DNA from: Leucobacter chromiireducens
GTDB lineage: Bacteria; Actinomycetota; Actinomycetes; Actinomycetales; Microbacteriaceae
Assembly: GCF_003917135.1 (NCBI RefSeq)
Contig: NZ_RPDI01000004.1
Location: forward strand, 62,001 to 126,000
Direction of reading: 5' to 3'
DNA length: 64,000 nucleotides
Shown one piece after another: positions 9,800 through 36,984 of this stretch. The notes beneath the pieces were generated by a model. That model made no database searches and was not told the DNA's origin. It saw only the letters and a program-made list of their open reading frames with translations. How positions within the stretch are numbered: position 1 is the stretch's first letter; the number at the start of each line of letters is the position of its first letter. The position numbers and the translations under genes were made by a program.

Positions 9800-10083
9800 C
9801 GCGAGTGCGCAGCGATACGCTTCGTCGCCATTCGGCTCGGTGACGCCCGCTCCTCTGCCCGCCGGGCATCGGTAGCCCCACCCCGTTCTCCCCCAGCGCG
9901 GCGAACCCTCCTCGCTCAGTGGCGATCGTGCGAAGCGCCGCTGGCGGCGCCGCACAGGTTCCGCGTGGGAATCGAGAAAGCTCTACTCGGATCTCTCCTC
10001 ACTGCGTAGCATGAGTGGTACTAGGTTGGGTGAGTTTTGGGGTGAGGGGACGCGGCTGCCGTGTCCCCGAGAAGGGGCGAACC
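9800..10083. other. Intergenic leader region before the surface-protein gene
   Basis: No gene is apparent in these 284 bases. The right half is AT-richer and has possible -10 hexamers (TAGCAT 10007-10012, TACTAG 10019-10024), without a convincing -35. A 6-bp stem (GGGGAC 10046-10051 with GTCCCC 10063-10068) lies just before the GAAGGGG ribosome-binding site. Confidence 0.4.
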
Positions 10084-13000
10084 ATGGCGTTCGGACATAT
10101 TGCACGGACGAATCGGCTGGCCCGGTTCCAAAGATCGGGTGCTTTCATTGCCGCAATCGCGGTCGTTGCGGGCGCGATCGTCGCGCTTCCGGGGATCAGT
10201 GGGGAAGCTCCGGCCCAGGCCGACTTCGCGGAAGGCGGCACCGGTGAGCATCGCAGCTCGATCGACTGGTTCACATTCCCAGCAGCGGAGCAGCCGATTG
10301 CAGATGGACAGAGGTATACGAACGAGCGTCAGATCGGCGCGGACAAAATAGTATCCACCTGCACGATCTCAGGTGTGTCCGGCGAGATCAGCACGTACCG
10401 CTCGGGATCCTTTGCTGGTGATGGATTGTCACGCCTCTACTACCAGGGCGGCCCCGGCACCCTCAACACGATGGTGACTGGCATCACGAACACGCAGTTC
10501 GGCGGTGCCGCCTCGTTCGACTTCGACTGCTCGGCGAGCTACGTGACTGCAGACGGAACCACGACGCCAATTCCGTTGCAGGGGCTCGTCGTCGCTGACG
10601 CTGAGTCGAGCAGCAGCCAGACAGGTGAGTGGCTGCAGGTCGATCCGCGGCCGCTGAACACCCCGGTGAATTGGCGGATCATCGACCGCGCGCGAAACGC
10701 GGACTGCACGGAGACAACCCTCGCCAATCCAACTCCGCAGGGCGGAATTCGCTTTGACCCGCAGGGGTACGAGTGCATCGGTTGGACGAGCGAGGGATAC
10801 GGTCCGATGGCCGTTGGCTTCATGGAGGGGGCCACGGCTGCGCACGTGTCCATGCAGGGCGGCGGGCACAGCGCCGTGGCGCTCGGCATGGTGATGAGTG
10901 TCGATTTCGGTGATGCACCCGAGTCGTTCGGGGCGGCTGGTGCGATCTTCCAGCCTGAATGGCAGGGCACGATCATTCCTGGGACGGGCGCTACTGATGT
11001 GTTCTCCGATGCTTTCGAGCTCAGTGTTCCGGGGGAGTCCCCGCTGACGCTCGGCACACACGTGGACGCGGAGACCGAGCACCTCCACAGCTGGGACGCG
11101 CTGCTCGACGACGAGACGGACTCACCGAGCGACGAGGACGCGATCCCGCTCGATCAGCTGCCACGCGCGGAGGAGGGCCACCGCTTCAACAACGGCGATC
11201 CGCTCACGGTAGCGTGCCGGGCGAACGGCACCACCGGCTTCGTCGCCGGCTGGCTGGACTGGAACCGCGACGGATCGTTCGACCCGGACACCGAGCGCTC
11301 GGAGATCGCCGAGTGCGCGGGCGGCACGGCCACGCTGAGCTGGCCGCAGCTTGCGGAGCTCGGCCCGGCCGAGGGCGCGTACGGGCCGGTGGTGTACCTC
11401 CGGCTGCGGATCGCGGCGAGCGAGGACGGGCTGAACCCGACCGGCGTGCTCGTGCCGACGGGCGTGGGATCCGCCGGCGAGGTGGAGGACTACGCGCTCG
11501 GGGTGCCGCTCATCACCGCGGTGAAGGAGTCGGACCCGCTCTCGGGCGCCCCTGTCGTGCACGGCACTGAGATCACCTACACCCTCACGTTCCACAACAC
11601 CGGCCAGGTGCCCGGCCAGATCGTCTACGACGATTTCATCGGCGGCGTGCTCGACAAGGCGGAGTTCGTGCCTGGCTCGATCTCGATCACCTCTCCCGAC
11701 GGCGACATCGGGGACGTCGCCGCGACGGAACCGGCCGGCAGCCCGGCGAGGATCTCCCTCAGTGGGGAGATGGCGCCAGGCAAGATCATCAACGTCTCGT
11801 ACACCGTGCGTGTGACGAGCGAGACCGCCGGCGATGTGCTGCAGAACTTCCTGATCCACGTTGACGACAACGGAGACCCGCTCGAGGAGATCCCGGAGAC
11901 CTGCCTCGAATCGAACCCGCGCTGCACCACGCACGAGGTGCTCGGCTCCGACCTCCAGGTGCGCAAGTCCTCCCTGCCGGGCGACGGCCAGGCCGTGAGC
12001 CCCGGGCAGCTCGTGACGTACCGACTCGACTTCCAGAACTGGGGCGCCGCCGAGGCCACCGTCGACCACGTCGACCACCTGGCCGAGGTGCTGCGCTACG
12101 GCACCTTCCTCCCGGACTCGCTGCGGATCGTCGGCGCGTCGGACCCGGCCGACCCCGGCAACCCGGAGGCGCACACGATCGCCGCGACGTTCGACGAGGC
12201 GGCGAGCACCCTGAGCGTCACGGGTACGCTGCGCGGCAACGCCGCCGGCCGCGTCGAGTATGTGGTGCGCGTCGACGACCCCGTAGTGCCAGAGGGCGAG
12301 ACGGCCCCGGTGCTGACGAACTTTGTTGTGGCAGGCGACGAGGAACCGCCGACGGTCTGTGCCACTGATCCGGAGCCAGGGTCCGAGCTCTGCACCGAGC
12401 ACCCCGTGAAGCTCCCAGACCTGCAGATTGCGAAGAGCGCCGACCCGGAGAGCGGCACGCTCGTATCCGCTGGCGATGTGCTCACGTACTCGCTGACCTT
12501 CGACAACTCGGCGGGCGCGGCCGCCGCGACCGTGGCGCACGATGACGATCTGTCCGGCGTGCTCGACGACGCGACGTTCGGGGAGGTGACCGATGACGGC
12601 GGGCTCGACGTCGCGGGCCCGGCCTCTGGCAAGCTCACGATCACCGGCCTCGTGCCGGCTGGCGCGACCAGGACGGTCACGTACACCGTGACGGTGAACG
12701 ACCCTGCCGACCGCGGCGACGACGTGCTGAGCAACTTCCTGCTGGAGGAGGGGGCGACCCCGCCGGGCGAGTGCCTCCCCGAGGACCCCTGCACCACGCA
12801 CCCGGCTGGGGATCCCAATCTGGTGCTTGCGAAGTCCGCGGACCCCGCGAGCGGCGAGCCCGTCGTCGCCGGGCAGACCGTGAGCTACTCCCTCAGCTTT
12901 GACAACACCGCTGGCACCGCGCCGGCCCCGCTCGATCACACCGACGACCTGTCCGACGTGCTCGACGACGCGACGTTCGTGGCCGGCTCGCTCACGGCGA

Positions 13001-16000
13001 GCGCTGGCGTCACCGCCACCGGCCCGGACGGCTCGGGGAAGATCAGCGTCACCGGCGCGGTCGCCGCGGGCGAGACCGCCACCGTGAGCTACCAGGTCAC
13101 CGTGAACGACCCGGTCGCCGACGGCGCGGAGCTCGCGAACTTCCTCTTCGCCGGCGACGAGGCGCCGGAGACCTGCGTGCCGGGCGATCCCTGCACGGTG
13201 CACCCGGGCACGAAGCCCGATCTGCAGGTGACGAAGCAGGCGAACCCCGAGACGGGTACGGAGGTGTTCGAGGACGACGAGCTCACGTACACGCTGCAGT
13301 TCGAGAACACCGGCAGCGCGCCGGCCGACGTCGCGTACACCGACAATCTCAGCGGCGTGCTCGATGACGCCGAGCTGATCCAGGATCCGATGGTCGCCCC
13401 GGCCGGGGCACTTACCGGTGCGATCGTCGACGGCGAACTCGCGATCACGGGGACGCTGGCGCCCGGCGCGAGCGCGACCGTGACCTACCGGGTGCGGGTG
13501 CTCCCCGAGGCGGACCGCGGCGATCACTCGCTCGGCAACTTCCTCTTCCCGACGGGAACGGAGCCGCCGACCACCTGCGCGCCGGAGTCCGAGCTGTGCA
13601 CCGAGCACCCGGCGCCGCTGCCCGACCTCGTGGTGCAGAAGCTCGTTGACGTCGGCTCGACCACGCCGGTGGAGCCGGGCGACGAGCTGCGCTACGGGCT
13701 CGAGTTCAATAACTCGAGCGGGCGCGCGCCAGCGCCGGTCTCGTACGTTGACGACCTCAGCGGCGTGCTCGACGACGCGGCGTTCGATCCGGCATCGCTT
13801 GAGGTGCCGGCCGGGCTCACCGCGGTGTACTCCGAGCCGGAGCAGACGATCACCGTCACCGGCACGGTGCCGGCCGGGCAGACGCTCACCGTGCGCTACG
13901 TCGTGACGGTGCTGGCCGACGGCGAGCGCGGCGACAACGAGCTCGTCAACTTCCTCTTCGCGGAGGGCACCGAGCCCCCGACGGTCTGCACGCCGGAGGA
14001 GCTCTGCACCACGAACCCGGTGCCGGCGCTCGAGGTGACGAAGACCGCCGACCCGGCGAGCGGTCAGCCGGTCGCGGCCGGGGATACCGTGCGCTACACG
14101 CTCACCTTCGACAACCGCGCGGGCAAGGCCCCCGCCGCGGTGGAGCACACCGACGACCTGAGCGACGTGCTCGACGACGCGACGTTCGTTGCCGACTCGC
14201 TGCAGGCCGACGCCGGACTCACCGCGGCCGGGCCGAGCGCCGGGCTGATCACCATCACCGGCACCGTGCCGGCCGGCGAGCGGCTGACGGTCAGCTATGA
14301 GGCCACCGTGAAGGATGACGGCGAGCGCGGCAACAACTCGCTCGCGAACTTCCTGTTCGCCGGTGACGAGAAGCCCGAGGTGTGCGAGCCAGGCGAACCG
14401 TGCACCGTGCACCCGGTGCCGAACCTCACGGTGCGCAAGGGCGTCGACCCCGAGTCGGGCACGACCGTGTCGGCGGGGGACACCCTGCGATACACCCTCA
14501 CGTTCGACAATTCGGCCGGCACCGCGCCGGCCACCGTCGACCACCGTGACGATCTGCGCGGCGTGCTCGATGACGCCGCGTTCGTCGCCGGCTCGCTGGA
14601 GGCCGACGCCGGGCTCACCGCGACCGGCCCGAGCGGCGATGCGCTGCAGATCAGCGGCACCGTGCCGGCGGGGGAGACCCTGACCGTGCGCTACCGGGTC
14701 GAGGTGCTCCCTGACGGGGAGCGCGGCGACAACGTGCTGGCGAACTTCCTGCTGGCGCCAGGCGTGACCGAGCCGCCGATCACCTGCGAGGAGGGCGACG
14801 AGGCGTGCACCACGAACCCGGTGCCCGAGGTCTCCTACGTGAAGGAGGTCACCGCGTCGGATGACCCGATCGTGGCGGGCGAGTCGACGCTCAGCTACAC
14901 CGTGACGATCACGAACACGGGCGCCGCCACCGGCGACGTCGCGCGCACCGACGACCTCAGCGACGTGCTCGACGACGCGACCGTGGTGAGCCAGCCGGCC
15001 TCCGACACGCCGTCGGTGACGGTCACGGAGATCGCCGACGAGGCGTTCACGATCGGCGGCACGCTCGCCGCTGGGGCGACCGCGAAGGTCACCTACACGG
15101 TGCGCGTGAAGGAGGCGGCCGCGCAGGGCAACAGCCAGGCCGCCAACTTCCTCCTGCCGCCCGGCGTCACCGAGCCGCCCGAGGTGTGCGAGCCGGGCGA
15201 CCCCGAGTGCACGGAGACCCCGCTGCCAGCGATCCGGCCGGCGAAGTCCGCCGTCACCGAGAGCGGCGAGAGCTGGGTGCGCGCCGGCGAGGCGATCACC
15301 TACACGCTCACGTTCACGAACGACGGCGCGGCAGCCGGCCCCGTTGCCTACTGGGATGGGCTGCACGACGTGCTCACCTCCGCCGACTTCGAGGGCGAGA
15401 TCACGGTGAACCAGGACGCGGGGTCGAGCGTCGCGGCGGTGTTCAACGCCGCCGATGAACGCATCGACGTGAGCGGCGTGCTCGCCGCTCGTCAGACCGC
15501 GACCGTCGTGTACACCATGCGGATGCACGCGGATCTGCCGCACGGCGCGCGGGTGACGAACTACCTCGTCGGGGAGGGCGAGTCGCTCGAGCTGCCCGGC
15601 TGCTTCCCGGACGACGACGTGATCTGCACCGACCACCCCGCCGTGATGCCCGGCCTCGACGTCTCGAAGTCCGCCGACCCCGCCTCGGGAACCGAGGTGC
15701 GCGAGGGTGACGAGGTCACGTACACGCTGTCGTTCGACGCGTGGGGCCCGGACCGCGCGGCCGTGCAGCACCGCGACATCCTGAACGATGTGGTGGACGA
15801 CGCCGAGCTGATCACGCAGCCGGTCGTCGCGATCGACGGCGATGGGACGCTGAAGGCGGTCCTCGCGCGCGGCGCGAACGGCGAGGCCAGGATCGACGTG
15901 CGCGGCTCGCTCGCCGCTGGCACACACGCTACGGTGAGCTACACCGTGCGCGTGCTGCCCGACCGGGAGCGGCCGGCCGCACCGGCGGCCGAGGGCACGA

Positions 16001-16677
16001 CGCCGCACCAGCTCGGCAACGTCGTGATCGGGGCCGGTGAGGAGCCGCCGCTCGTCTGCGAGCCGGCAGCCCCCAACTGCACGGTGCACCCGGTCGAGAC
16101 GAAGCCGGACATCGAGGTGACGAAGCAGGTCGACCCGGAGAGCGGCACCGCGGTGGCCGCCGGCGAGCAGCTGAGCTACACGCTCGGCTTCGAGAACTTC
16201 GGCACCGCGGCGGGCGCGGTCGACTTCGAGGACCGCCTCGCCGGGGTGCTCGACGACGCGGCGCTCATCTCCGGCCCCACCGTGAGCGGGGCGGGGCTCA
16301 CCGCGACGCTCGACGGCGACGTGCTGCGGATCGCGGGCGAGCTCGCGCCGAAGCAGCGCGCCACCGTGAGCTACACGGTCGAGGTGCTGCCCAGCGCGGC
16401 CGACGGCGAGGGCGTGCTCCTCAACTTCGTGGTGAAGCCAGGCGATCCGACGCCGGAGGTGTGCGATCCCGCGCAGCTGCCGTGCACGGCGAACCCGGTG
16501 ATCCCCGAGGATCCGACGAAGCCGATCCCGAAGCCGCCGCTCGCGGAGACCGGCGGGGCGAGCACGCTGCCGTGGCTGCTCGGCGGGGCCGGACTGCTCG
16601 GGGCCGGAGCCCTGCTCGTGACGCTCGCCCTCGCGCGGCGCGCACGGCGCGGGGGAGCGATCGCCACGCAGGAGTAA
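10084..16677 (+). CDS. Giant LPXTG-type surface protein with GEVED domain and twelve DUF11-like repeats
   Basis: A 2197-residue cell-wall-anchored protein. Residues 1-47 form a long signal peptide (a FIAAIAVVAGAIVALP core, then APAQA). Residues 50-340 form an unassigned N-terminal domain. A region ending in GEVEDY (465-470) is a GEVED-type domain with a DWNRDGSFDPDT calcium-loop-like stretch. From about residue 479 come twelve modules of about 139 residues, each with a lysine-containing entry strand, a YTLTF-N strand and a closing Cys pair (C-x(5-9)-CT-x-HP type), as in DUF11 stalk repeats. The C-terminus is a sortase signal: LAETG (2153-2157), a hydrophobic helix and Arg-rich tail. I start at the ATG at 10084 after GAAGGGG. 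It probably acts as an adhesin or stalk. A/T-ending codons are much commoner before about 11100 than after. Confidence 0.9.
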   Translation: MAFGHIARTNRLARFQRSGAFIAAIAVVAGAIVALPGISGEAPAQADFAEGGTGEHRSSIDWFTFPAAEQPIADGQRYTNERQIGADKIVSTCTISGVSGEISTYRSGSFAGDGLSRLYYQGGPGTLNTMVTGITNTQFGGAASFDFDCSASYVTADGTTTPIPLQGLVVADAESSSSQTGEWLQVDPRPLNTPVNWRIIDRARNADCTETTLANPTPQGGIRFDPQGYECIGWTSEGYGPMAVGFMEGATAAHVSMQGGGHSAVALGMVMSVDFGDAPESFGAAGAIFQPEWQGTIIPGTGATDVFSDAFELSVPGESPLTLGTHVDAETEHLHSWDALLDDETDSPSDEDAIPLDQLPRAEEGHRFNNGDPLTVACRANGTTGFVAGWLDWNRDGSFDPDTERSEIAECAGGTATLSWPQLAELGPAEGAYGPVVYLRLRIAASEDGLNPTGVLVPTGVGSAGEVEDYALGVPLITAVKESDPLSGAPVVHGTEITYTLTFHNTGQVPGQIVYDDFIGGVLDKAEFVPGSISITSPDGDIGDVAATEPAGSPARISLSGEMAPGKIINVSYTVRVTSETAGDVLQNFLIHVDDNGDPLEEIPETCLESNPRCTTHEVLGSDLQVRKSSLPGDGQAVSPGQLVTYRLDFQNWGAAEATVDHVDHLAEVLRYGTFLPDSLRIVGASDPADPGNPEAHTIAATFDEAASTLSVTGTLRGNAAGRVEYVVRVDDPVVPEGETAPVLTNFVVAGDEEPPTVCATDPEPGSELCTEHPVKLPDLQIAKSADPESGTLVSAGDVLTYSLTFDNSAGAAAATVAHDDDLSGVLDDATFGEVTDDGGLDVAGPASGKLTITGLVPAGATRTVTYTVTVNDPADRGDDVLSNFLLEEGATPPGECLPEDPCTTHPAGDPNLVLAKSADPASGEPVVAGQTVSYSLSFDNTAGTAPAPLDHTDDLSDVLDDATFVAGSLTASAGVTATGPDGSGKISVTGAVAAGETATVSYQVTVNDPVADGAELANFLFAGDEAPETCVPGDPCTVHPGTKPDLQVTKQANPETGTEVFEDDELTYTLQFENTGSAPADVAYTDNLSGVLDDAELIQDPMVAPAGALTGAIVDGELAITGTLAPGASATVTYRVRVLPEADRGDHSLGNFLFPTGTEPPTTCAPESELCTEHPAPLPDLVVQKLVDVGSTTPVEPGDELRYGLEFNNSSGRAPAPVSYVDDLSGVLDDAAFDPASLEVPAGLTAVYSEPEQTITVTGTVPAGQTLTVRYVVTVLADGERGDNELVNFLFAEGTEPPTVCTPEELCTTNPVPALEVTKTADPASGQPVAAGDTVRYTLTFDNRAGKAPAAVEHTDDLSDVLDDATFVADSLQADAGLTAAGPSAGLITITGTVPAGERLTVSYEATVKDDGERGNNSLANFLFAGDEKPEVCEPGEPCTVHPVPNLTVRKGVDPESGTTVSAGDTLRYTLTFDNSAGTAPATVDHRDDLRGVLDDAAFVAGSLEADAGLTATGPSGDALQISGTVPAGETLTVRYRVEVLPDGERGDNVLANFLLAPGVTEPPITCEEGDEACTTNPVPEVSYVKEVTASDDPIVAGESTLSYTVTITNTGAATGDVARTDDLSDVLDDATVVSQPASDTPSVTVTEIADEAFTIGGTLAAGATAKVTYTVRVKEAAAQGNSQAANFLLPPGVTEPPEVCEPGDPECTETPLPAIRPAKSAVTESGESWVRAGEAITYTLTFTNDGAAAGPVAYWDGLHDVLTSADFEGEITVNQDAGSSVAAVFNAADERIDVSGVLAARQTATVVYTMRMHADLPHGARVTNYLVGEGESLELPGCFPDDDVICTDHPAVMPGLDVSKSADPASGTEVREGDEVTYTLSFDAWGPDRAAVQHRDILNDVVDDAELITQPVVAIDGDGTLKAVLARGANGEARIDVRGSLAAGTHATVSYTVRVLPDRERPAAPAAEGTTPHQLGNVVIGAGEEPPLVCEPAAPNCTVHPVETKPDIEVTKQVDPESGTAVAAGEQLSYTLGFENFGTAAGAVDFEDRLAGVLDDAALISGPTVSGAGLTATLDGDVLRIAGELAPKQRATVSYTVEVLPSAADGEGVLLNFVVKPGDPTPEVCDPAQLPCTANPVIPEDPTKPIPKPPLAETGGASTLPWLLGGAGLLGAGALLVTLALARRARRGGAIATQE
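11517..16500 (+). repeat. Twelve tandem DUF11-like modules (about 417 bp each)
   Basis: Within the surface-protein gene the same module recurs twelve times at an average spacing near 417 bases. Each module begins with a K-S/T/Q-x-D-P-x-SG-like entry and ends in a Cys pair before THP/VHP/TNP. Modules 3, 4, 7 and 8 are most alike; 9 and 10 are the most divergent. The near-identical stretches (for example GVLDDATF and LTFDN codings) could allow recombination that changes repeat number. Confidence 0.85.
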
Positions 16678-16680
16678 AAT
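16675..16680 (+). promoter_or_regulatory. -10 element for the GNAT gene, built on the upstream stop codon
   Basis: TAAAAT begins with the TAA stop of the surface-protein gene and ends six bases before the GTG at 16687, predicting a leaderless GNAT transcript. Confidence 0.5.
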
Positions 16681-16686
16681 ACTCGG

Positions 16687-17787
16687 GTGCCTGAGACAGA
16701 GCTGACGCCCGAACACCACACGAACGCCGCCCCCGCGGCCCCCGACTTCGTGATCCGAGGGATCGCGGAGGGGGAGTACCCCGCGGAGGCGGCGCTCGTG
16801 CACGCGGCGTACGCGGAGAGCACCTACGGCGCGCAGCTCGCGGACGACGCCGAGTGGCTGGCGCTCGAGCGGGACACGGCTGGCCGCGACGCCGACGGCC
16901 GGATCCTCGTCGCCGCGCGCGGTGACGAGCTGATCGGCGCGGTCTCCGTGCTGCGCGGCGGCACCCGCTACGCGAAGCTCGCGGCGGCGGGCGAGGTGGA
17001 GCTGCGCCTCGTGGTCGTCGCGCCCAGCGCGCGCGGCGCGGGCGTTGGCGAGGCGCTCGTGCGTGCCGGCATCGAGGAGGCCATGCGCTGGGGCGCGCGC
17101 GAGGTGCGCCTCGACACCGGCGTGCAGAACCCCGCGGCGCGGCTCTACGCGCGCATCGGCTTCGCGCGCACGCCCGAGCTCGATCACCAGCTCGACGGCG
17201 CGAACTACGGCGCTTCGCTGAGCTTCAGCTACCCGCTGCAGGAGCGGCCCGACGTGCGCGTGCGCGAGATTCGTGACGCGGAGATCGCGGCGGTGAGCGA
17301 GCTCGTGCTCGCAGCGTACCGCGACGACTACGAGGGGCTGCCAGGCGAGTACCTCGCCGAGATCGCCGACGTCGCAGCGCGCGCGGCCGAGCACCGCGTG
17401 TGGGTGGCGGAGGACACCGCGACGGGCACGCTGCTCGCCACGATCACCACCCCGCGCCCCGGCGAGGTGCTCAGCGACGTCGCGCGCCCCGGCGAGATGG
17501 ATCTCAGGCTGCTCGGCGTGAGCGGCGCGGCCCGCGGGCGCGGCATCGGCTCACTCATGATGCGCCACGGGCTGCGGCTCGGCCGCGTCCGAGCGGTCGA
17601 CCAGGTGGTACTGAACACGAGCACGGAGATGGTCGCCGCCTACGAGATGTACGACCGGATGGGCTTCGCGCGCCTACTGGATCGCGAGCACGAGATCGTG
17701 CGCGCCGACGGGACGAGCTTCCGCCTGCTCGCGTACGGCATCGATCCCGCGCTGGCCTCGCTTACTCGGACGCCGCGCGCGGCCTGA
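16687..17787 (+). CDS. Tandem GNAT-family N-acetyltransferase
   Basis: A 366-residue protein with two GCN5-related acetyltransferase domains. The first spans roughly residues 18-175 and carries the acetyl-CoA pyrophosphate loop as LVVVAPSARGAGVGEAL; the second spans residues 185-360 with LLGVSGAARGRGIGSLM, followed by a typical C-terminal MYDRMGF strand-helix. Both CoA loops (R/Q-x-x-G-x-G/A) look intact. The substrate cannot be inferred. A GTG at 16687 is used, with a -10 hexamer six bases upstream. The gene ends head-on to purQ, separated by a strong bidirectional hairpin. Confidence 0.9.
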   Translation: MPETELTPEHHTNAAPAAPDFVIRGIAEGEYPAEAALVHAAYAESTYGAQLADDAEWLALERDTAGRDADGRILVAARGDELIGAVSVLRGGTRYAKLAAAGEVELRLVVVAPSARGAGVGEALVRAGIEEAMRWGAREVRLDTGVQNPAARLYARIGFARTPELDHQLDGANYGASLSFSYPLQERPDVRVREIRDAEIAAVSELVLAAYRDDYEGLPGEYLAEIADVAARAAEHRVWVAEDTATGTLLATITTPRPGEVLSDVARPGEMDLRLLGVSGAARGRGIGSLMMRHGLRLGRVRAVDQVVLNTSTEMVAAYEMYDRMGFARLLDREHEIVRADGTSFRLLAYGIDPALASLTRTPRAA

Positions 17788-29453: not shown

Positions 29454-31208
29454 CTACTTCGCGGAAGCGCGGGTGACGATGGCGAGGTCGAGTGGGAAGT
29501 CGATGGGGGCGCCGGGGAAGAGGAGGCGCGCCGCATCGTCGGCGGCCGCACGCACCGCACCGGCCGCGCGCTCGGCCTGCTCGTGCGGGGCATGCACGAT
29601 GACCTCGTCGTGGAGGAAGAACACCAGGTGCGCGCGGCGTGCGAAGAGCGGCCCCGATGCCGGCGCCTGCGGGGCGTCCGTGATCTCGGGCAGCTCGGCC
29701 AGGCGACCGCGGAGGCTCGCGAGCCAGGTGAGCGCCCACTCGGCCGCGGTGCCCTGCACCACGAAGTTGCGGGTGAAGCGGCCGAACTCGTGGGCCGAGC
29801 GCCGCGCGTGCGCCTCGTCCGCGCCGGTGGCGCCAGGCAGGCTCGCGCGCGCCTGCGTGTCGAACCACTCGGGTTCCGGCCGCGGGGAGGTGCGCCCGAG
29901 GCGCGTGCTCACGCTGCCGCCGCGCTCCCCGGTGGCCGCGGCCTGGTCGACGAGGGCCATCGCGGTGGGGTAGCTGCGGCGAAGGCGCGGCGCGAGCCTG
30001 CCGGACTCGCCGGTGGTCGCCCCGTACATGGCGCCGAGCATGGCGAACTTCGCCTCCTCGCGCGTAGCAACGGCGCCGGACTGCACCACGCCGGTGTAGA
30101 GGTCGGTGCCGCGCGCGGCAGCGGCAAGCGCGTGATCCCCGGCGTGCGCCGCGAGGACGCGCGGCTCCAGCTGCGACACGTCGGCGGTGATGAGTCGCCA
30201 GCCGGGATCGGCGCGGAGCGCGGGGCGGAGCTGCCTGGGGATCTGGAGGGCACCGCCGCCGCTCGACGCCCAGCGCCCGGTCGGCACGCCGCCTGGCACG
30301 TACACCGGCCGGTACCTCCCGTCGCGCACCCACTCGTCGAGCCACGCCCAGCCGTTTGCCGAGAGGAGGCGCGCGAGCTTCTTGTAGTGCAACAGCGGCG
30401 CGATCGCCGGGTGCTCGTGCTCCATCAGCTCCCACTGCGAGGTGGATGCGACGTCGATGCCGGCTCGGCGGAGCGCGCGGACGAGCTTCGGCGGGGAATC
30501 GAGGCTGGCGCTCGGGTCGCCGAGCGCCAGGCGCACCGCTTCGGCGAGTTCGAGCATGCGCGCCGGTTTCACGTGGAGCGGTGGCCGCGGGCCCAGCTGC
30601 GCTTCGAGGATGCGCTCGTGCTCCAAGGTGTCCCAGGGGAGGCCGGCGTCGCTCATCTCGGCCGCGATGAGGGCGCCGGCCGACTCGGCGGCGAGCAGCA
30701 TGCGCAGGCCACCGTCCGCCGCGCTGGCATCACGCTGCCGAAGCCACTCGGCCCGCGCGGCCTCCCAGTCGTGCGGCACCGCGGTCGCGGAGGGCGGCGG
30801 TGTCGCGGCGAGATCGAACAGGGTGGGCACCGCCGGATCGGTGGCAGGCGCCTCCGGCGGCACGAACGGCACGTCCCACGCGGTCGCCGCGCGCAGCGGT
30901 GCGGGATCAGGGACGCGCTCCGATCTCGCCAGGATCGCGTGGCAGAGCCGGAGGTCGTGGCAGCGCGCAACGCGCACGCCCGCCGCGAGGAGCCGCGGGT
31001 ACCAGTGCGCCGTGTCACTCCACACCCAGCGAACCGTGCCTGCGGCCTCGCGCTCGGCGACGAAACCGGGGAGCTCTGCCTGGCTGAGCTCTACCTGCTC
31101 ACCCGCGCCATCGAGCGGGAGCGCGGTGATCTCCGCTGCTGCGGACTCGCCGAGCACCCACGCCGTCGCCGCGCGCTGGGGCACGGGAGGAACTGGCTGC
31201 GTGGTCAC
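29454..31208 (-). CDS. DNA polymerase I-family protein (3'-5' exonuclease-like / polymerase)
   Basis: A 584-residue family A polymerase, shorter than PolA (about 900 residues) and without the 5'-3' nuclease domain. The C-terminal polymerase has motif A (DVSQLEPRVLAAHAGD), motif B region (KFAMLGAMYGATTGESG) and motif C (FLHDEVIVH); the catalytic Asp residues of A and C are present. The N-terminal 170 residues are where the exonuclease-like domain sits, but I do not see an intact DEDD set, so proofreading is doubtful. Such proteins are widespread in Actinobacteria beside the true PolA; their task is unclear, probably gap filling or repair. A TAGCCT hexamer lies six bases before the GTG start. 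Confidence 0.85.
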   Translation of the reverse strand: MTTQPVPPVPQRAATAWVLGESAAAEITALPLDGAGEQVELSQAELPGFVAEREAAGTVRWVWSDTAHWYPRLLAAGVRVARCHDLRLCHAILARSERVPDPAPLRAATAWDVPFVPPEAPATDPAVPTLFDLAATPPPSATAVPHDWEAARAEWLRQRDASAADGGLRMLLAAESAGALIAAEMSDAGLPWDTLEHERILEAQLGPRPPLHVKPARMLELAEAVRLALGDPSASLDSPPKLVRALRRAGIDVASTSQWELMEHEHPAIAPLLHYKKLARLLSANGWAWLDEWVRDGRYRPVYVPGGVPTGRWASSGGGALQIPRQLRPALRADPGWRLITADVSQLEPRVLAAHAGDHALAAAARGTDLYTGVVQSGAVATREEAKFAMLGAMYGATTGESGRLAPRLRRSYPTAMALVDQAAATGERGGSVSTRLGRTSPRPEPEWFDTQARASLPGATGADEAHARRSAHEFGRFTRNFVVQGTAAEWALTWLASLRGRLAELPEITDAPQAPASGPLFARRAHLVFFLHDEVIVHAPHEQAERAAGAVRAAADDAARLLFPGAPIDFPLDLAIVTRASAK

Positions 31209-31297: not shown

Positions 31298-32713
31298 CTA
31301 TGCCCTCCCGGCGGAGAGCCGCAGCGTCGCGGCCGCCTCTGCCGCGAGCTTGCGCTTGAGTTCGAGCGACTCGCCAATCTCCGTCGCGAGCCGCGGCCGA
31401 TTCGCGATCAGCTCGTCGAGCGTCGCGATCGGGATCCTGAGCAGGGTGAGGATCTCGCCGGCCACCGCGACGGACTGCGAGGGCTCGCGCGTGAGCGCGG
31501 TGAGGCCGAGCAGGTCCCCCGCCGTCGCTGCGGTGAACTCGAGCCGGCCACCCTCCGCTTCGAGCGCGATCGAGGCGCGCCCCGAGATCACGATGTACAC
31601 GGCATCGGGGATGGCCCCGGTGGGGAGCACCACCTCGCCGACGCCGTAGCGCACGAGACGCGCGGTGGCGAGGAGCAGCGCGCGGCCCTCCTCGCGGAGG
31701 TGCAGCGTTGGGGCGACCGCCTCGACGGCCGCCTCGAGCCGCTCTGGCTCGGCGATCGGATCGGTCGAATCGCCGTCGAGGGCGAAGCCGCGCCGGCGTG
31801 CCGCGTACCAGAGCCAGGACAGGTACAGCGTTTGCGCGCGCTGCGCGTCCGCAGGCCCGTCGACGGGGATCGTGACCTCGAACGCGCCGTTGCCGCCGTA
31901 CTCGACGGCGACCGGCTCGTCCTGCCGCCGCTGGGGGAGCCCGTTCGCCACGTCGCGGAGCAGCGCGATCACCTCGTGCGGCGGATCGTCGGTGGTGAAC
32001 TTCACCGCGGTCGTTGCCGCGTACGGCCCGTCGGGCTCGCTGAGGTTCGTGAACGACGCGCCGGACAGCGTGGAGTTCGGCACGATCTGGATCCCGGATC
32101 CGGTATCAATGTGCACCGCGCGCCAGTTCACCTCGACGACGCGCCCGCGCACGCTGCCGGTGTCGAGCCAGTCGCCGATCTTGAACGGCTGCTCGAACAA
32201 GAGCAGCAGGCCCGAGATGACCCCGCCGACCGCGTTCTGGAGCGCGAGGCCGATCACGATGGAGGTGACGCCGAGCGCGGCGAAGAGCCCGCCAACATCC
32301 GCCTTCCACACCCAGGAGAAGAGGATCGCGAGGCCCACCACCACGAGCGCGAGCCGACCGATCTCAATGAAGATCGACGGGATGCGCTCGCGCCAGGACC
32401 CCTGCCTCGCGTTGGCGAAGAGCGCAGCGTTGAACGAGGAGAGCACCAGCAGGATCACGAGGAACCCGAAGACCGTCGCGGCGATCCTCACCCAGACGAG
32501 ATCCGCTGGGGATCGCATCGCGAAGCCGAGCAGCGCGAACACCGCGCCCGCGGGGATCACCCAGTTGCGCAGCAACCGCATCGGCCCAGCGAGCGGGTGA
32601 TTTCGGCGCGACAGCGCCGTGATGAGCTCGGTGAGGCCGACGAGCACCACCGGCACGATCACAGCGAGCGCGATGACCCACCAGGTCCAGGCCTGGCTGA
32701 AGAGCTCGGCCAT
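31298..32713 (-). CDS. MscS-type channel with C-terminal cyclic-nucleotide-binding fold
   Basis: A 471-residue inner-membrane channel of the bCNG type. Helices lie near residues 10-32, 50-66, 76-98 and 114-136; the pore helix and MscS core follow (residues 140-230, GLFAALGVTSIVIGLALQNAVGG, then FEQPFKIGD). Residues 340-435 look like a cNMP-binding domain (GEVVLPTGAIPDAVYIVISG, then AGDLLGLTAL). The phosphate-binding cassette is degenerate: the ribose-binding Glu is Leu404 and the phosphate-binding Arg position is Ser412, so classical cAMP binding is unlikely. The ATG at 32713 follows the cyclase stop by one base, so the two are cotranscribed and the cyclase protein is the presumed partner. 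Confidence 0.88.
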   Translation of the reverse strand: MAELFSQAWTWWVIALAVIVPVVLVGLTELITALSRRNHPLAGPMRLLRNWVIPAGAVFALLGFAMRSPADLVWVRIAATVFGFLVILLVLSSFNAALFANARQGSWRERIPSIFIEIGRLALVVVGLAILFSWVWKADVGGLFAALGVTSIVIGLALQNAVGGVISGLLLLFEQPFKIGDWLDTGSVRGRVVEVNWRAVHIDTGSGIQIVPNSTLSGASFTNLSEPDGPYAATTAVKFTTDDPPHEVIALLRDVANGLPQRRQDEPVAVEYGGNGAFEVTIPVDGPADAQRAQTLYLSWLWYAARRRGFALDGDSTDPIAEPERLEAAVEAVAPTLHLREEGRALLLATARLVRYGVGEVVLPTGAIPDAVYIVISGRASIALEAEGGRLEFTAATAGDLLGLTALTREPSQSVAVAGEILTLLRIPIATLDELIANRPRLATEIGESLELKRKLAAEAAATLRLSAGRA

Positions 32714-32714
32714 G

Positions 32715-34880
32715 CTAGGCGACCTTCCAGACGGTCTCGGTCTTGCCGTGCGACTCGACGGTGCCGGCCTCCGTGAACTCGAAGATCTCCTGCGTGCGCT
32801 CGTACACCGTCTGGCTGACGTAGACACCGGGATCCCCCGTGACCGAGCGCACGCGGTACGCGAGGCTCACCGCGTCGCCCCAGAGGTCGTAGGCGAGCGA
32901 GGTGCGCGCGACGAGACCGCTCGTCACCGTTCCCGTGTCGACACCGGCGCGCACCGAGATGCTCGACCGGTTCTGCGCGTTGAACCGCTCGACGACGGTG
33001 AGCAGCGAGCGGGCGAACTCGACGCTGCGGCGCACGTTGTCCACGCGTGGGACCACGAGGCCGGAGGAGACGAGGTAGCCGCCGCGGAGCGTGCGCACCT
33101 TCTCGACTCCCGCCTTCTCAGCTGCCTCGTCGAACCCTCGCATCAGCGCGTTCAGCTGGCTGACCTCCTCCTCGGGGCTGAGGCCGCGCGCGTACTCGTC
33201 GAAGCCGACGAGCTCGGCGAACACCACGGAGACCTTCTCGTGCGCCTCCGAGATCGTCTCGTCGCCCTGCTTGTAGCGCGCCGCAACGCTCTCGGGCATG
33301 AGCGTGTGGAGCAGCTTCTCGTTCTCGACGCGCTGCTCCTCGAGGAGGTCCTGCTTGAGGCGCAGGCTCGACGCCATGTCGTTGAACGCGCTGCCCAGCC
33401 CGCCGAACTCGTCGCGTGAGTGCTCGGGGACGCGCACGTCGAGGTCGCCCTCGGCGATGCGGTGCGTCGCGTCGACGAGGCGACGGATCGGCCGGGTGAA
33501 CACCTGCGCGAGGACCAGCGACAGCAGCGAGACGGCGACCATGATGCCCAGGAGCGAGAGCAGCACGTTGCGCGTGAACGTCGACACCGGCGCGAACGCT
33601 TCGTCGGTGTCGATGCGCGCGACGATCATCCAGTCCACGTCCTCGATCTCGAGCGGCGCGTACGCGGTGATGCTCTCGCCACCGATGTAGTCGCGGCCGA
33701 CGATCGCGCCCGATTCCCCGGCCTTCGAGGACTCGACGGCCTGCGTGTTCACCCGCTGCAGCATGGTGGTGCCGCCGACATCGACGATGCGCTGGGCGGT
33801 CTCCGGCGAGTTGCCGCCGTTGATCGCGCGCTGCGCGTAGGTGTCCGGATCCTCGATCAGCCGGCGCGAGTTGCTGCGCATCAGCCCGTCGCGGCCGACG
33901 AGATACACCTCGCCGGTCTTCCCGAGCCCCTGCTCGGCCCAGAGCTCATCGCCGGTCATCACATCGTTGATGCGGTCGATCGACACCTGGAATGCGATCG
34001 CGCCGGTGATCCCGCTGTCGTTGCCGACGGGGGACACGACCCACAGCGCCGGAACGTTGAGCGATGGGATCCAGCGTTCGAAGTCGGTCATCATGACCGT
34101 GTTGACGCTGTTCGTCGCGATGGCGGCCTGATACTCATCGGTGAGCGCCGACTCACGGTACGGGCCGGTGTTGATGTTGGTGCCGAGCTCCGTCCCCTTG
34201 AACGCGGAGAACACCACGTCACCGTCGAGGTTGAGCAGCAGCGCGTCCTCATACCCCGCCTGATCGATGAGGCGCGTGAAGTAGTCGCCGTAGCGCTCCG
34301 CCGTCGCGGAGTACCGGGTGCCGTCGCCGGTGTCGTTGGTGCGCAGCAGCGTGTCGTAGTCGGCGTCGAAGTCGGTGTTCTTCACCGTGTACTGCAGCTG
34401 CAGATACTTGCCAGCGGTCGATTCGGGGATGAACGCGCTGTCGCCGTACGACTGGTCGGCGCGCGCCTCCAGCTGCGGAATGAACGCGTCGGCGTAGTAC
34501 GCGGCGAGCCGCTCGTCGGCGGCCTCGTCGATCGTGACGGAGCTCGCGAGGTCGTCGAAGGCGGCGTTCATCTCGCGCGACAGCGTCTGCGCGCTGAGGT
34601 TGCGCGACTGCAGTGACGCGTCGAGCCGGAACGCCCGCACGGCATTCTCGATCTCGGTGGCGCGCATCGAACGGATCGTGGTGAGCTGGTCGACCGCCGC
34701 GCTGTGCAGCGATTGCCTGCCGTTCACGAAGCCGATCGCCCCAACGACGATGGAGGAGATCAGGCTCACGCCCAGCAGCATGACGAGCAGTTTCGATTGA
34801 ATGCTCAGCCCGCCCAGTCTGCGGCGCGGTCTCCTTCCGGTGGTCTCGGTGTTCGTACTGACGGCACCCGCGTCGCTCAT
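32715..34880 (-). CDS. Cache-HAMP-class III nucleotidyl cyclase-like protein (degenerate active site)
   Basis: A 721-residue membrane sensor: first helix at residues 28-52, a large extracellular dCache-like region (55-430, with TGEVYLVGRDG and APLEIEDVDWMIVARID), second helix 436-460, HAMP (461-515) and a class III cyclase fold (545-721). The active site is altered: the first metal Asp is Glu556, the base-selecting Lys is Arg596, the second metal Asp is Gly600, and the transition-state Asn is Ser672, although Arg676 and Asp665 remain. It is therefore probably a pseudocyclase that signals by conformation or binding. It is upstream of, and one base from, the MscS-CNB channel gene. GGGGGA lies just before the ATG. 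Confidence 0.87.
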   Translation of the reverse strand: MSDAGAVSTNTETTGRRPRRRLGGLSIQSKLLVMLLGVSLISSIVVGAIGFVNGRQSLHSAAVDQLTTIRSMRATEIENAVRAFRLDASLQSRNLSAQTLSREMNAAFDDLASSVTIDEAADERLAAYYADAFIPQLEARADQSYGDSAFIPESTAGKYLQLQYTVKNTDFDADYDTLLRTNDTGDGTRYSATAERYGDYFTRLIDQAGYEDALLLNLDGDVVFSAFKGTELGTNINTGPYRESALTDEYQAAIATNSVNTVMMTDFERWIPSLNVPALWVVSPVGNDSGITGAIAFQVSIDRINDVMTGDELWAEQGLGKTGEVYLVGRDGLMRSNSRRLIEDPDTYAQRAINGGNSPETAQRIVDVGGTTMLQRVNTQAVESSKAGESGAIVGRDYIGGESITAYAPLEIEDVDWMIVARIDTDEAFAPVSTFTRNVLLSLLGIMVAVSLLSLVLAQVFTRPIRRLVDATHRIAEGDLDVRVPEHSRDEFGGLGSAFNDMASSLRLKQDLLEEQRVENEKLLHTLMPESVAARYKQGDETISEAHEKVSVVFAELVGFDEYARGLSPEEEVSQLNALMRGFDEAAEKAGVEKVRTLRGGYLVSSGLVVPRVDNVRRSVEFARSLLTVVERFNAQNRSSISVRAGVDTGTVTSGLVARTSLAYDLWGDAVSLAYRVRSVTGDPGVYVSQTVYERTQEIFEFTEAGTVESHGKTETVWKVA

Positions 34881-35004: not shown

Positions 35005-35697
35005 CTATCCGAAGCGGTAGCCGACGCCGCGCACCGTGGAGATGAGCTTCGGCTGCGAGGCCTCCTCCTCGATCCGCGCGCGAATTCGCTTCACGTGCAC
35101 GTCGAGGGTCTTCGTGTCGCCGTAGTAGTTGCTGCCCCACACGCGGTCGATCAGCTGGCCGCGGGTGAGCACCCGGCCGGAGTGTCGCATCAGCATCTCG
35201 AGCAGCTCGAACTCGCGAAGCGGCATCGCGATCTCCTCACCGCGGACGGTCACCGAGTGGCGCTCGGAGTCGAGCCGGATGCCGTGCTCATCGAGGACGA
35301 ACGCGTCAACGCTCTCCCGCTCCTCCTCCTGCGTTCCGGTGCGGCGGAGCGCCGCGCGCACGCGGGCGAGGAGCTCGCGCGTCGAGTACGGCTTCGTGAT
35401 GTAGTCGTCGGCGCCGAGCTCAAGCCCGACGACGATGTCGATCTCGCTGTCCTTCGCGGTCAGCATGATGATCGGCACCTGCGAGGTGAGCCGAATCGCG
35501 CGGCACACCTCGGTGCCTGGCAGGCTCGGCAGCATCAGATCGAGGAGCACGAGGTCCGGCTGCGCGGTGCCGAACTCGGTGAGGGCCGTGGTGCCGTCGT
35601 TCACGACGGTGACGCGGTAGCCCTCCCGCTCGAGCAGAAACGCGAGTGGGCGTGAGATCGATTCCTCGTCCTCGACGAGCAGGATGTGCTGGGCCAC
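35005..35697 (-). CDS. regX3: OmpR/PhoB-family response regulator, RegX3-like
   Basis: A 230-residue two-component regulator. The receiver has the acidic pocket (VEDEES), phosphoacceptor Asp53 in LVLLDLMLP, and conserved Lys in ADDYITKPYS; the C-terminal winged helix has the GRVLTRGQLIDRVWG and LDVHVKRIRARIE recognition segments. Its GTG start shares one base with the kinase stop. With the SenX3-like kinase upstream and phoU divergent, it is the phosphate-response pair, equivalent to RegX3 of Mycobacterium and PhoP of Streptomyces. It would be expected to bind the GTTCAC direct repeats between the kinase gene and phoU. Confidence 0.92.
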   Translation of the reverse strand: MAQHILLVEDEESISRPLAFLLEREGYRVTVVNDGTTALTEFGTAQPDLVLLDLMLPSLPGTEVCRAIRLTSQVPIIMLTAKDSEIDIVVGLELGADDYITKPYSTRELLARVRAALRRTGTQEEERESVDAFVLDEHGIRLDSERHSVTVRGEEIAMPLREFELLEMLMRHSGRVLTRGQLIDRVWGSNYYGDTKTLDVHVKRIRARIEEEASQPKLISTVRGVGYRFG

Positions 35698-36971
35698 TAT
35701 CGGGATCCCTTCTGGGAGGCTGAGTTCGGTGCGGAAGACGGTTCGGTAGCGGCAGCCGCGGCGGCTGCGGCGGGAGCTGGGGCGGCTGCGCGTGCCGCGG
35801 CGCGAGCGGCGCGCTTCGCCTTCTTCATGCGCTTCGCCCCCTTCTCCGGTGCCGCCGCGTCGTGCACGGGGAACGTGAGGGTAAAGCTCGAGCCGACGCC
35901 CGGCTGCGACCACACGTCGATGTCGCCGCCGTGCGCCCGCATCGTGTGCCGCGCAATGCTCAGGCCGAGGCCCGTGCCGCCGTCGCCACGGGTGCGCGCG
36001 CCGTCGACCCGGTAGAACCGCTCGAAGATGCGCGGTAGGTGCTCGGCGGCGATGCCCTCGCCCTGGTCGGTGACGGTGACGGTGAAGCTCTGCTTGTCCG
36101 AACTCATGCCGACGCCGACGCGGCCACCCTCTGGGGAGTGCCGGATCGCGTTCGAGAGGAGATTCGCGACCGCGGAGGCGAGCGAGGTGGGGCGTCCCAT
36201 GATCGACGCGTCAGCGGCCGACGACTCATCGGTGACGACGAGCTCGACCCCGTGCTGCCCGGCGAACGAACGGTGTGAGTCCACCTCGGCACGCACGAGA
36301 TCCCGCAGCGAAACCGGCTCGCGATCCTCAGGGCGGAGCGCCGACTGCGCCTCGGAGAGTTGGATGATGTCGCGCGAGAGCTCGCCGAGGCGGCGCGACT
36401 CCTTGACGAGGCTCTTCGAGAAATCGCGCACGAGCTCGGGCTCGTCGGCCGCCTGCTGGGTGGCCTCCGCGAGCAGCCCGATCGCGGCGATCGGGGTCTT
36501 GAGCTCGTGGCTCACGTTCGCGATGAAGTCGCGGCGCATCGCGTTCACGCGCTGTTCTTCGCCCTGGTCCTCCGCGAGGATGAGCACGAAGCGGCGCTGG
36601 AAGCGAACGATGTGCATCCGCACGGTGTCTGCGGGGTTGCTGGGGTCTGGCTCGTGGGTGTCCGGGATCCCGGTCGACATGACCCGGCGCACGCGGCTCA
36701 GAAACTCCGGATCGGCGAGCTCGGCGTCGCCGATGTGCCGCTCCTCGCGCGCCGTGGGGTTCGCGTACACGGGCGCGAGAGAGGAGTCGAGAATCACCGC
36801 GAACGTGTCGATCTCGTCGAGGATTGAGGTGGCCACCTCGGGGAGTTCTGGCCGCACCGCGTCGGCGCGCTTCACTCCCGCGCGGCGGGCCATCACTATT
36901 GCTAGCGTGGTACCAACACCGACCAGCACGCCGAGTGCGGTTGAGGTGAGCACGAGCACAGCCGGGTCCAT
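35697..36971 (-). CDS. senX3: SenX3-like sensor histidine kinase (phosphate response)
   Basis: A 424-residue membrane kinase: one N-terminal helix (residues 5-28), a PAS-like domain (50-135), the H-box FIANVSHELKTPI with His155, and an ATPase domain with NLLSNAIRHS, DQGEGIAAEHLPRIFERFYR and GGTGLGLSIA. The tail after residue 375 is Lys/Ala-rich and low complexity. I prefer the ATG at 36971 since a TACGAT hexamer ends seven bases upstream of it; the ATG at 36980 lies inside that hexamer. It is head of the senX3-regX3 operon and divergent from phoU. Confidence 0.92.
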   Translation of the reverse strand: MDPAVLVLTSTALGVLVGVGTTLAIVMARRAGVKRADAVRPELPEVATSILDEIDTFAVILDSSLAPVYANPTAREERHIGDAELADPEFLSRVRRVMSTGIPDTHEPDPSNPADTVRMHIVRFQRRFVLILAEDQGEEQRVNAMRRDFIANVSHELKTPIAAIGLLAEATQQAADEPELVRDFSKSLVKESRRLGELSRDIIQLSEAQSALRPEDREPVSLRDLVRAEVDSHRSFAGQHGVELVVTDESSAADASIMGRPTSLASAVANLLSNAIRHSPEGGRVGVGMSSDKQSFTVTVTDQGEGIAAEHLPRIFERFYRVDGARTRGDGGTGLGLSIARHTMRAHGGDIDVWSQPGVGSSFTLTFPVHDAAAPEKGAKRMKKAKRAARAAARAAAPAPAAAAAAAATEPSSAPNSASQKGSR

Positions 36972-36978
36972 GTCTCTC

Positions 36979-36984
36979 ATCGTA
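36979..36984 (-). promoter_or_regulatory. -10 element for senX3-regX3 (predicted leaderless)
   Basis: TACGAT on the minus strand ends seven bases before the ATG at 36971 and lies about 28 bases from the PHO-box array. Confidence 0.45.

Follow-up and report, generated by a model that had tools for sequence, protein, structure and literature searches.

Channels of the MscS-CNB type are usually taken to answer a diffusible messenger. In Leucobacter chromiireducens a gene for such a channel stands beside a gene for a receptor with a cyclase-like domain, and residues of the nucleotide sites are replaced in both proteins. How, then, could the receptor act on the channel? We addressed this question in a window of 64,000 nucleotides (the whole stretch of DNA analysed, positions 62,001 to 126,000 of contig NZ_RPDI01000004.1) and in related loci.

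Architecture of the two-gene locus

The two genes and their domains are listed in Table 1. Only base 32714 separates them: the receptor stop codon ends at 32715 and the channel ATG occupies 32713–32711. Coordinates, strand and spacing thus bear out the preliminary description of two same-strand genes one base apart. Its assignment of a Cache-HAMP-class III cyclase-like protein followed by an MscS channel with a CNB fold also holds, since all Pfam matches exceed their cut-offs (dCache_1, HAMP and Guanylate_cyc in the receptor; MS_channel_2nd and cNMP_binding, E 1.4e-9, in the channel). The dCache domain is presumed to be an extracellular ligand sensor. The AF2 models of receptor and channel have mean pLDDT values of 86.2 and 88.4.

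Table 1. Positions of the genes, domains and site residues in the window, with family counts for the residues
Feature	Coordinates	Strand	Details
Receptor gene	32715..34880	-	721 aa; TM1, extracellular dCache, TM2, HAMP, signalling helix, class III cyclase-like domain
dCache_1 match, aa 202-421	33618..34277	-	Pfam PF02743, 51.1 bits, cut-off 45
HAMP domain, aa 457-507	33360..33512	-	Pfam PF00672, E 2.6e-18
Class III cyclase-like domain, aa 544-715	32736..33251	-	Pfam PF00211, E 1.2e-32
E556 at first metal Asp	33213..33215	-	D in 55/65 family rows
R596 at selectivity Lys	33093..33095	-	R in 65/65 family rows; Lys in 0/65
G600 at second metal Asp	33081..33083	-	D in 3/65 rows; 62/65 without Asp
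S672 at transition-state Asn	32865..32867	-	N in 26/65, S in 33/65 rows
Channel gene, MscS-type with C-terminal CNB fold	31298..32713	-	471 aa
MscS beta-domain, aa 161-225	32039..32233	-	Pfam PF00924, E 2.7e-19
CNB-fold match, aa 354-438	31400..31654	-	Pfam PF00027, 38.2 bits, cut-off 27.5
L404 at ribose-binding Glu	31502..31504	-	E in 0/65 family rows
S412 at phosphate-binding Arg	31478..31480	-	R in 0/65 family rows

The C-terminal domain of the receptor has the class III cyclase fold (PF00211, 113.4 bits against a cut-off of 21.9), and a Foldseek search places it close to the bacterial adenylyl cyclase 5o5l (TMt 0.84, 32% identity). It shares this fold with the mycobacterial transmembrane class III adenylyl cyclases (Rv1625c/Cya, 4p2f and 7yzk; 5o5l), from which the receptor differs by the dCache and HAMP domains ahead of the fold and by the loss of the Lys and the second metal Asp. 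The channel has the pore helix and beta-domain of the MscS superfamily (PF00924, 69.5 bits; Foldseek MscS 2oau, E 8.3e-14), and its CNB fold also finds CNB/CRP chains in Foldseek. MscS core and C-terminal CNB fold together give the architecture of the bacterial cyclic nucleotide-gated (bCNG) channels of the MscS family, on which Caldwell et al. reportedly worked in 2010. The present channel differs from these in that a receptor gene adjoins it, and in its pocket residues.

In Mycobacterium tuberculosis, we take the cyclase Rv2435c and the MscS-CNB protein Rv2434c to be that species' member of the pair. Our comparison covers four mycobacterial loci titled Mycobacterium or Mycolicibacterium (L158, L164, L169 and L175), which stand for the genus group here. 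Rv2435c is classed as a mammalian-type cyclase (PMC3961136), its expression is reported (PMC3938503), and both proteins are named by Shenoy et al. 2004 (PMC2447327).

Residues of the cyclase-like site and the CNB pocket

Residue places were assigned by alignment to the solved AC9 for the cyclase and to SthK for the channel; we assume that the aligned places keep the roles given in Table 1. The substitutions named in the preliminary description (E556, R596, G600 and S672; L404 and S412 in the channel) are all present as written. The window receptor also retains D665 and R676, which that description did not mention, and these are the only canonical residues among the six places checked. The set of an active class III cyclase (two metal Asp, Lys, Asn, Arg) is broken by E556, R596, G600 and S672. 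Among 65 full-length homologues, window included, D665 and Y602 are kept in every row, the catalytic Arg in 53 and an Arg at the R599 place in 54. Because position 600 varies over ten different residues across the family, a second metal site is not expected there. The loss of the Lys, of the second metal Asp and of the channel Glu and Arg is family-wide, which supports the earlier interpretation, but the change of the first Asp to Glu is a clade trait, 55 rows keeping Asp. None of the 65 rows is a near relative with intact metal Asp pairs and binding-cassette Glu and Arg, and the pair is not a lone decayed copy. From these residues we infer that the receptor domain is without catalysis, and we call it the dead domain below.

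The binding cassette of the channel is altered likewise: neither the Glu nor the Arg of bCNG channels occurs in the window (L404, S412) or in any family row. Over all unique paired channels, the phosphate Arg is present in 1 of 162 and the ribose Glu is missing in 126 of 162, whereas, of the 33 unpaired MscS-CNB channels that could be read, 32 have the Arg. For these counts, four of 179 partner channels that stop before the CNB fold (L131, L135, L165, L190) were left out, the remaining 175 rows giving 162 unique sequences; the 36 unpaired channels were reduced to 33 by removing the truncated L341 and two members of the paired subfamily (L311 and L312, both with Ser). Judged by these residues, the channel would not bind cAMP.

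Actinobacterial CNB pockets share a T-R-[EQ] motif (R409 in 61/65, E or Q at 410 in 64/65), whose conservation suggests some ligand or structural role and keeps a ligand in play. A small ligand other than cAMP could thus operate the pair, the pseudo-site binding or modifying a nucleotide without a second metal, the T-R-[EQ] pocket binding another anion, or both. The positively charged pseudo-site, with R596, Y602, D665 and mostly R599 kept, agrees with this, as does an Arg immediately preceding the canonical position in 17 unique paired channels (15 actinobacterial). Against it stand the variability of position 600 and the cyanobacterial pockets: in 38 unique paired channels the R409 place is Arg in 5 and Gly in 29, so that one common ligand across lineages is improbable. 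We consider this explanation rather unlikely.

Some pairs retain more of the catalytic site. From 196 receptor matches of at least 100 bits, six early-ending pieces were dropped (L180, two of L206, and one each of L270, L279 and L280), which left 190 rows, 177 of them unique; excluding the partial L206_2 and L270_1 and 11 unique rows with no downstream channel gave 164 unique paired cyclases. The full six-residue set is found in six of these, all cyanobacterial, and 13 more are nearly complete (12 lack only the Arg, one the Arg and the Asn). Catalytic loss is scattered: a tree of 114 sensor sequences requires at least five changes of state in the D-K-D core, and 12, 11 and 12 at its single positions. 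Intact unpaired cyclases of the same architecture number three, a thin control in which L194 and L197 have in-frame stops. Beside the six intact cyclases the channel phosphate Arg is missing in all six and the Glu is kept in four, and the Glu is also kept beside wholly dead globin-type cyclases. Strict parallel loss is rejected, since the loss of channel Glu and Arg does not track the state of the cyclase. The degeneration proposed earlier stands insofar as both proteins are altered and the losses are conserved in the family; calling it parallel was too simple.

Residual cAMP or cGMP signalling would require low or partner-assisted cyclase activity and a channel that responds despite the missing Glu and Arg. 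Survival of the first Asp, D665 and the catalytic Arg in most or all family rows and the complete sets of the six cyanobacterial pairs speak for it. The Lys and, in 62 of 65 rows, the second metal Asp are absent, however, and the phosphate Arg is missing even beside intact cyclases. Moreover, the window genome contains no other class III cyclase (PF00211) or CNB (PF00027) match, which speaks against a heterodimer with a second class III cyclase; 60 of the 65 pair genomes likewise lack a second PF00211 match. We regard such signalling as improbable. Given this genome content, the earlier suggestion that the pair has left cyclic nucleotides behind is plausible. D665, however, is kept throughout, and the dead site could therefore still accommodate a nucleotide.

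Pycsar antiphage systems combine a cyclase with a CNB effector, the same two part types as here. PADLOC gives weak matches: the receptor resembles PycC (E 0.017), and the channel both a TIR effector (E 0.0032) and PycC (E 0.036). These are marginal, the receptor match spans only aa 614–694, and the pair has an extracellular dCache receptor and Gly at the second metal Asp where a PycC-type cyclase has an active metal site. Membership is rejected on these grounds, and we give an antiphage role of this kind hardly any credence.

Inheritance of the pair and selection on the dead domain

In all 65 family rows the receptor gene lies directly upstream of an adjoining channel gene, more than chance would produce. 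Measured to the codon at which the window's channel starts, the gap ranges from -8 to +32 bp, an approximate figure, since in a few rows the assumed start is not a start codon. The pair also occurs in mycobacteria, cyanobacteria, proteobacteria and others, with its gene order kept across phyla. Its surroundings are not shared: of the three genes that neighbour the pair in the window, one recurs at a single locus among the other 64 and two at none, within flanking stretches of about 4 kb. Upstream of the pair, 43 of the 65 family loci carry an ABC exporter; the window does not, and the exporter was not retained as a third conserved gene. Two apparent fusions with one long frame through both genes (L147 and L180) were set aside as contact evidence because the receptor end is out of frame relative to relatives in both.

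Intact pairs may be under-sampled in the wider contig scan, which took the best 80 of 575 confirmed matches to degenerate queries; the cyanobacterial search used an intact query to offset this bias. At E<=1e-70 the receptor is found in 28 of 386 cyanobacterial genomes, two of which hold a sensor lacking the cyclase domain. The channel subfamily, delimited by a cut at E 1e-69 (next match 1.4e-65) chosen after viewing the match list, is present in exactly the remaining 26 genomes and in no others of the 386. In one of them (G962) the two genes lie on different contigs. Such counts are not independent, because the sequences are related.

These data bear on whether the two proteins are simply co-expressed, both answering one condition such as osmotic stress and neither acting on the other. 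A shared operon is by itself no proof of interaction, and the catalytic domain and the CNB fold show no specific co-evolution: domain-distance correlations examined for contact are weak and unspecific (partial r 0.17 between the two). Yet the same cyanobacterial genomes hold both genes, even unlinked, and the pair keeps its order across phyla whereas the window's neighbours do not persist. Mere co-expression has, in our estimate, a low probability.

Purifying selection acts more strongly on the dead domain than on the dCache sensor. The dN/dS of the dead domain, 0.00–0.11, is below that of dCache in all eight comparisons, three of which use the same three genomes. In mean identity, however, the dead domain (0.56) ranks below HAMP (0.59) and the helix (0.61), a point against the coupling proposed below. 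Simple decay of a vanishing cAMP circuit might be supposed from the missing key residues, from a full-length gene in only 3 of 54 genomes of the genus and from strain L206, in which both genes are broken. It is largely refuted by the selection on the dead domain, by the same losses in relatives and by matches free of internal stops in the 65 family rows, and is very improbable.

Proposed coupling of receptor and channel

We see about an even chance that the pair is a self-contained two-gene receptor–channel module, in which a dimer of dead cyclases serves as protein output on an MscS-type channel and cAMP plays no part. An extracellular ligand would bind the dCache domain, and TM2, HAMP and the signalling helix would carry the signal across the membrane to the dimer of dead domains. 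The altered dimer would then act on the co-translated channel, whose CNB fold would no longer serve as a cAMP receptor. Coupling is probably by direct contact. The proposal builds on the observed architecture, adjacency, cyanobacterial co-occurrence, residue losses, selection on the dead domain and genome content; receptor dimer, contact, direction of signalling and the channel as the controlled party are our deductions. With a mean pairwise identity of 0.40 the CNB fold is the least conserved part of the channel, which fits poorly with the CNB as contact site. The weak domain-distance correlations, the complete or nearly complete catalytic sets of some paired cyclases, the T-R-[EQ] motif and the conserved D665 also weigh against the proposal.

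A fuller reading, possible but doubtful, is an ancient multi-phylum two-protein ligand-gated channel in which the dCache-HAMP dimer gates the MscS heptamer by direct pseudo-cyclase contact. The cyclase fold would have been re-used as a mechanical output that docks on the CNB fold or on the MscS body, while its enzymatic activity would have become dispensable early and been lost repeatedly. Globin added to the same output in some cyanobacterial members would make a gas-sensitive channel.

Inherited together across several phyla, the two proteins suggest a signalling pair that no longer depends on the messenger for which its components evolved. A clean test is possible in the window genome, because neither a further class III cyclase match nor a further CNB match was found there to confuse it. 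For most family members, the names adenylate cyclase and cAMP-gated channel would probably be misleading. If the proposal is true, a pseudo-cyclase is a signalling output, a dead fold held under purifying selection, and MscS-type channels would gain a route to control by extracellular ligands.

Organization of the receptor and channel genes

The preliminary description placed two adjacent genes on one strand, a dCache-HAMP-class III cyclase-like receptor and an MscS-type channel with a C-terminal CNB fold. Coordinates and strand are borne out, and a single base separates the two genes. Its residue calls are also right, with Glu556, Arg596, Gly600 and Ser672 of the receptor at the places of the first metal Asp, the selectivity Lys, the second metal Asp and the transition-state Asn, and Leu404 and Ser412 of the channel at those of the ribose Glu and the canonical phosphate Arg. 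Alignments to AC9 and SthK map these residues onto the catalytic and binding positions, respectively. Pfam matches above the curated cut-offs are observed for dCache_1, HAMP and Guanylate_cyc in the receptor; the channel has such matches to cNMP_binding and to the beta-domain of MscS. The structure models are confident (mean pLDDT 86.2 for the receptor and 88.4 for the channel) and resemble MscS, CNB and class III cyclase structures upon structure comparison. Judged from alignments and predicted models, the fold is preserved and the site is lost in both proteins. A profile search of the window's genome gives a single PF00211 match and a single PF00027 match, both within the pair; among the control genomes 5 of 14 and 10 of 14 match, respectively, Corynebacterium glutamicum in both.

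The upstream two-component genes are not conserved with the pair. Neither they nor the polA-like frame are found beside the other 64 pairs, save for one response-regulator match (39% identity). Of the very long open frames elsewhere in the window, at most one is likely real.

Features of the window
Feature	Position	Strand	Length
Channel gene	31298-32713	-	471 aa
Receptor gene	32715-34880	-	721 aa
Two-component genes (histidine kinase, response regulator), upstream of the pair	35005-36980		
Frame with DNA polymerase A match (E 1e-18), downstream of the pair	29454-31208	-	584 aa
Very long open frames	10015-17394	both	2220 aa and 2090 aa

Conservation of the pair in Microbacteriaceae

The full-length receptor is present in 3 of 54 genomes of the window's genus, the window counted. 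Family-wide, 66 of 398 genomes match at 1e-20, including two (G415 and G416) with a match to the cyclase domain only. The other family matches and one genome from the genus search (G020) provide 64 homologues besides the window, and in all 64 the channel directly follows the receptor on the same strand, with a gap of about -8 to +32 bp. Across the 65 rows, Arg occupies the selectivity Lys place and Asp665 is kept throughout. The first metal Asp place holds D55 E10, the second E20 S11 Q10 G7 R5 A5 D3 N2 K1 H1, the Asn place S33 N26 T5 V1 and the cyclase Arg place R53 Q7 K2 A2 L1. In the channel, the Glu place holds L27 Q27 H3 I3 M3 S1 V1 and the canonical Arg place A16 T14 V11 L8 D4 S3 N3 I3 E2 Q1, and a T-R-[EQ] motif is conserved (T in 58, R in 61, E or Q in 64). 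A second PF00211 match is absent from 60 of the 65 pair genomes. No PF00027 match above the cut-off besides the pair's own is found in 43, among which G428 and G142 also have the pair's own CNB unmatched, and the other 22 encode another CNB protein.

Of the 65 family loci, 43 have an ABC exporter upstream on the same strand (L064:1741-3723 is an example, and the copies are 68-87% identical to it); it is not beside the window's pair. Decay of the pair does occur in single strains, e.g. in Curtobacterium flaccumfaciens (L206), where receptor and channel both seem broken into several frames.

Wider spread and loss of catalytic residues

The receptor is found in 17 of 396 genomes in the Actinomycetota search and, with an intact query (all six catalytic residues kept), in 28 of 386 genomes of the cyanobacterial phylum. 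The best 80 of 575 confirmed matches of a named-genome scan extend, judged by record titles, to Mycobacterium/Mycolicibacterium, Propionibacteriaceae, cyanobacteria, Planctomycetota, Poribacteria, Acidimicrobiia, and alpha- and gammaproteobacteria; an MscS match is present in 76 of these 80 loci, the exceptions being L191 (contig edge), L194, L197 and L198. Counting only matches that pass the thresholds (E about 1e-69 or better for the channel subfamily), 26 cyanobacterial receptor genomes are identical to the 26 with the channel subfamily, both searches covering the 386 genomes; in the remaining two of 28 (G931 and G1185) the match reaches only the HAMP region. Receptor (L269) and channel (L311) lie on separate contigs in G962. 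In one of the two genomes matched only as far as HAMP (locus L279), the same kind of sensor is joined by Pfam to an MCP (chemotaxis) output in place of a cyclase, and the other (L280) resembles it by sequence; neither has a channel match within the fetched stretch.

Among the titles and abstracts listed by our open-literature searches, none presents the pair as a family. Rv2434c and Rv2435c are presumably its M. tuberculosis members. Both names occur in Shenoy et al. 2004 (PMC2447327), and passages from PMC3961136, PMC3938503, PMC4560390 and PMC4284465 do not describe the pair.

Among 164 unique paired receptors, pooled across searches and including the best 80 of 575, all six residues are kept in 6, both metal Asp in 21, Lys in 34 and the second metal Asp in 34. 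In all 120 actinobacterial receptors a metal Asp or the Lys is missing. Of the cyanobacterial ones, 6 are intact, 13 lack just the Arg (12) or both Arg and Asn (1), and 19 are further degraded; those of alphaproteobacteria (2), gammaproteobacteria (2), Planctomycetota (1) and Poribacteria (1) are all degraded. On a quick tree built from only the sensor region (114 rows), where changes are counted without direction, the D-K-D core shows at least 5 state changes, and the single positions at least 12 (Asp1), 11 (Lys), 12 (Asp2), 8 (Asp665), 26 (Asn) and 19 (Arg). The dead states are unlike one another between lineages. Loss is the reasonable reading of the changes on the tree.

Eleven unique receptor rows have no downstream channel. 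Intact sites are found in L125 and L126, matched in the cyclase domain only, and in the gammaproteobacterial L194, L197 and L198 of the same architecture; as a control these are thin, since L194 and L197 carry one and two in-frame stops (L198 none). The other rows run counter to the pattern: L269 is degraded and lacks a nearby channel, its genome having one at a different locus; L191, also degraded, stops at a contig edge; and the degraded L218_1, L219_1, L220_0 and L221_1 sit downstream of an MscS gene. Three distant Actinomycetota loci (L218, L219 and L221) are receptor-channel-receptor clusters with both receptors degraded, and L220, cut at the start of its stretch, has channel then receptor.

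In cyanobacteria, a C-terminal globin (PF00042) follows the pseudo-cyclase in L273 (E 3.7e-15) and L275 (E 1.4e-12), and by sequence also in L274, L276 and L277, the last with an additional globin-like frame before the channel. The catalytic set of these proteins is wholly degraded. Such pairs may be a gas-sensing version.

The channel pocket and a proposed nucleotide-free coupling

The canonical Arg is present in only 1 (L221) of 162 unique paired channels and Glu in 36, whereas unpaired cyanobacterial MscS-CNB channels have Arg in 32 of 33 and Glu in 36 of 36 (36 loci without a receptor nearby; for Arg, two of the paired subfamily, with Ser, and one cut off were set aside). Beside the six intact cyclases Arg is absent in 6/6 and Glu kept in 4/6, thus the loss of the channel Arg does not follow from cyclase decay. 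In 17 channels (e.g. L063, L129, L132, L158, L164, L195 and L207) an Arg lies one place before the canonical one. Given the T-R-[EQ] motif of the channel, and Arg596, Arg599, Tyr602 and Asp665 retained in the receptor, it is possible that the pair uses a different ligand.

Mean pairwise identity over the 65 rows is 0.56 for the catalytic-like domain, 0.48 for dCache, 0.59 for TM2 with HAMP and 0.61 for the signalling helix, and in the channel 0.72 for pore and beta-domain and 0.40 for CNB. In 8/8 comparisons dN/dS is lower in the catalytic-like domain (0.00-0.11) than in dCache (0.06-0.20), which indicates that the dead domain is maintained; three of the eight draw on one set of three genomes and are close to synonymous saturation. 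Physical contact between receptor and channel is inferred, and domain-distance correlations give no support for it; since CNB is weakly conserved, such contact, if real, may involve the MscS body. The best reading is a nucleotide-free coupling, in which an extracellular sensor would act on the channel.
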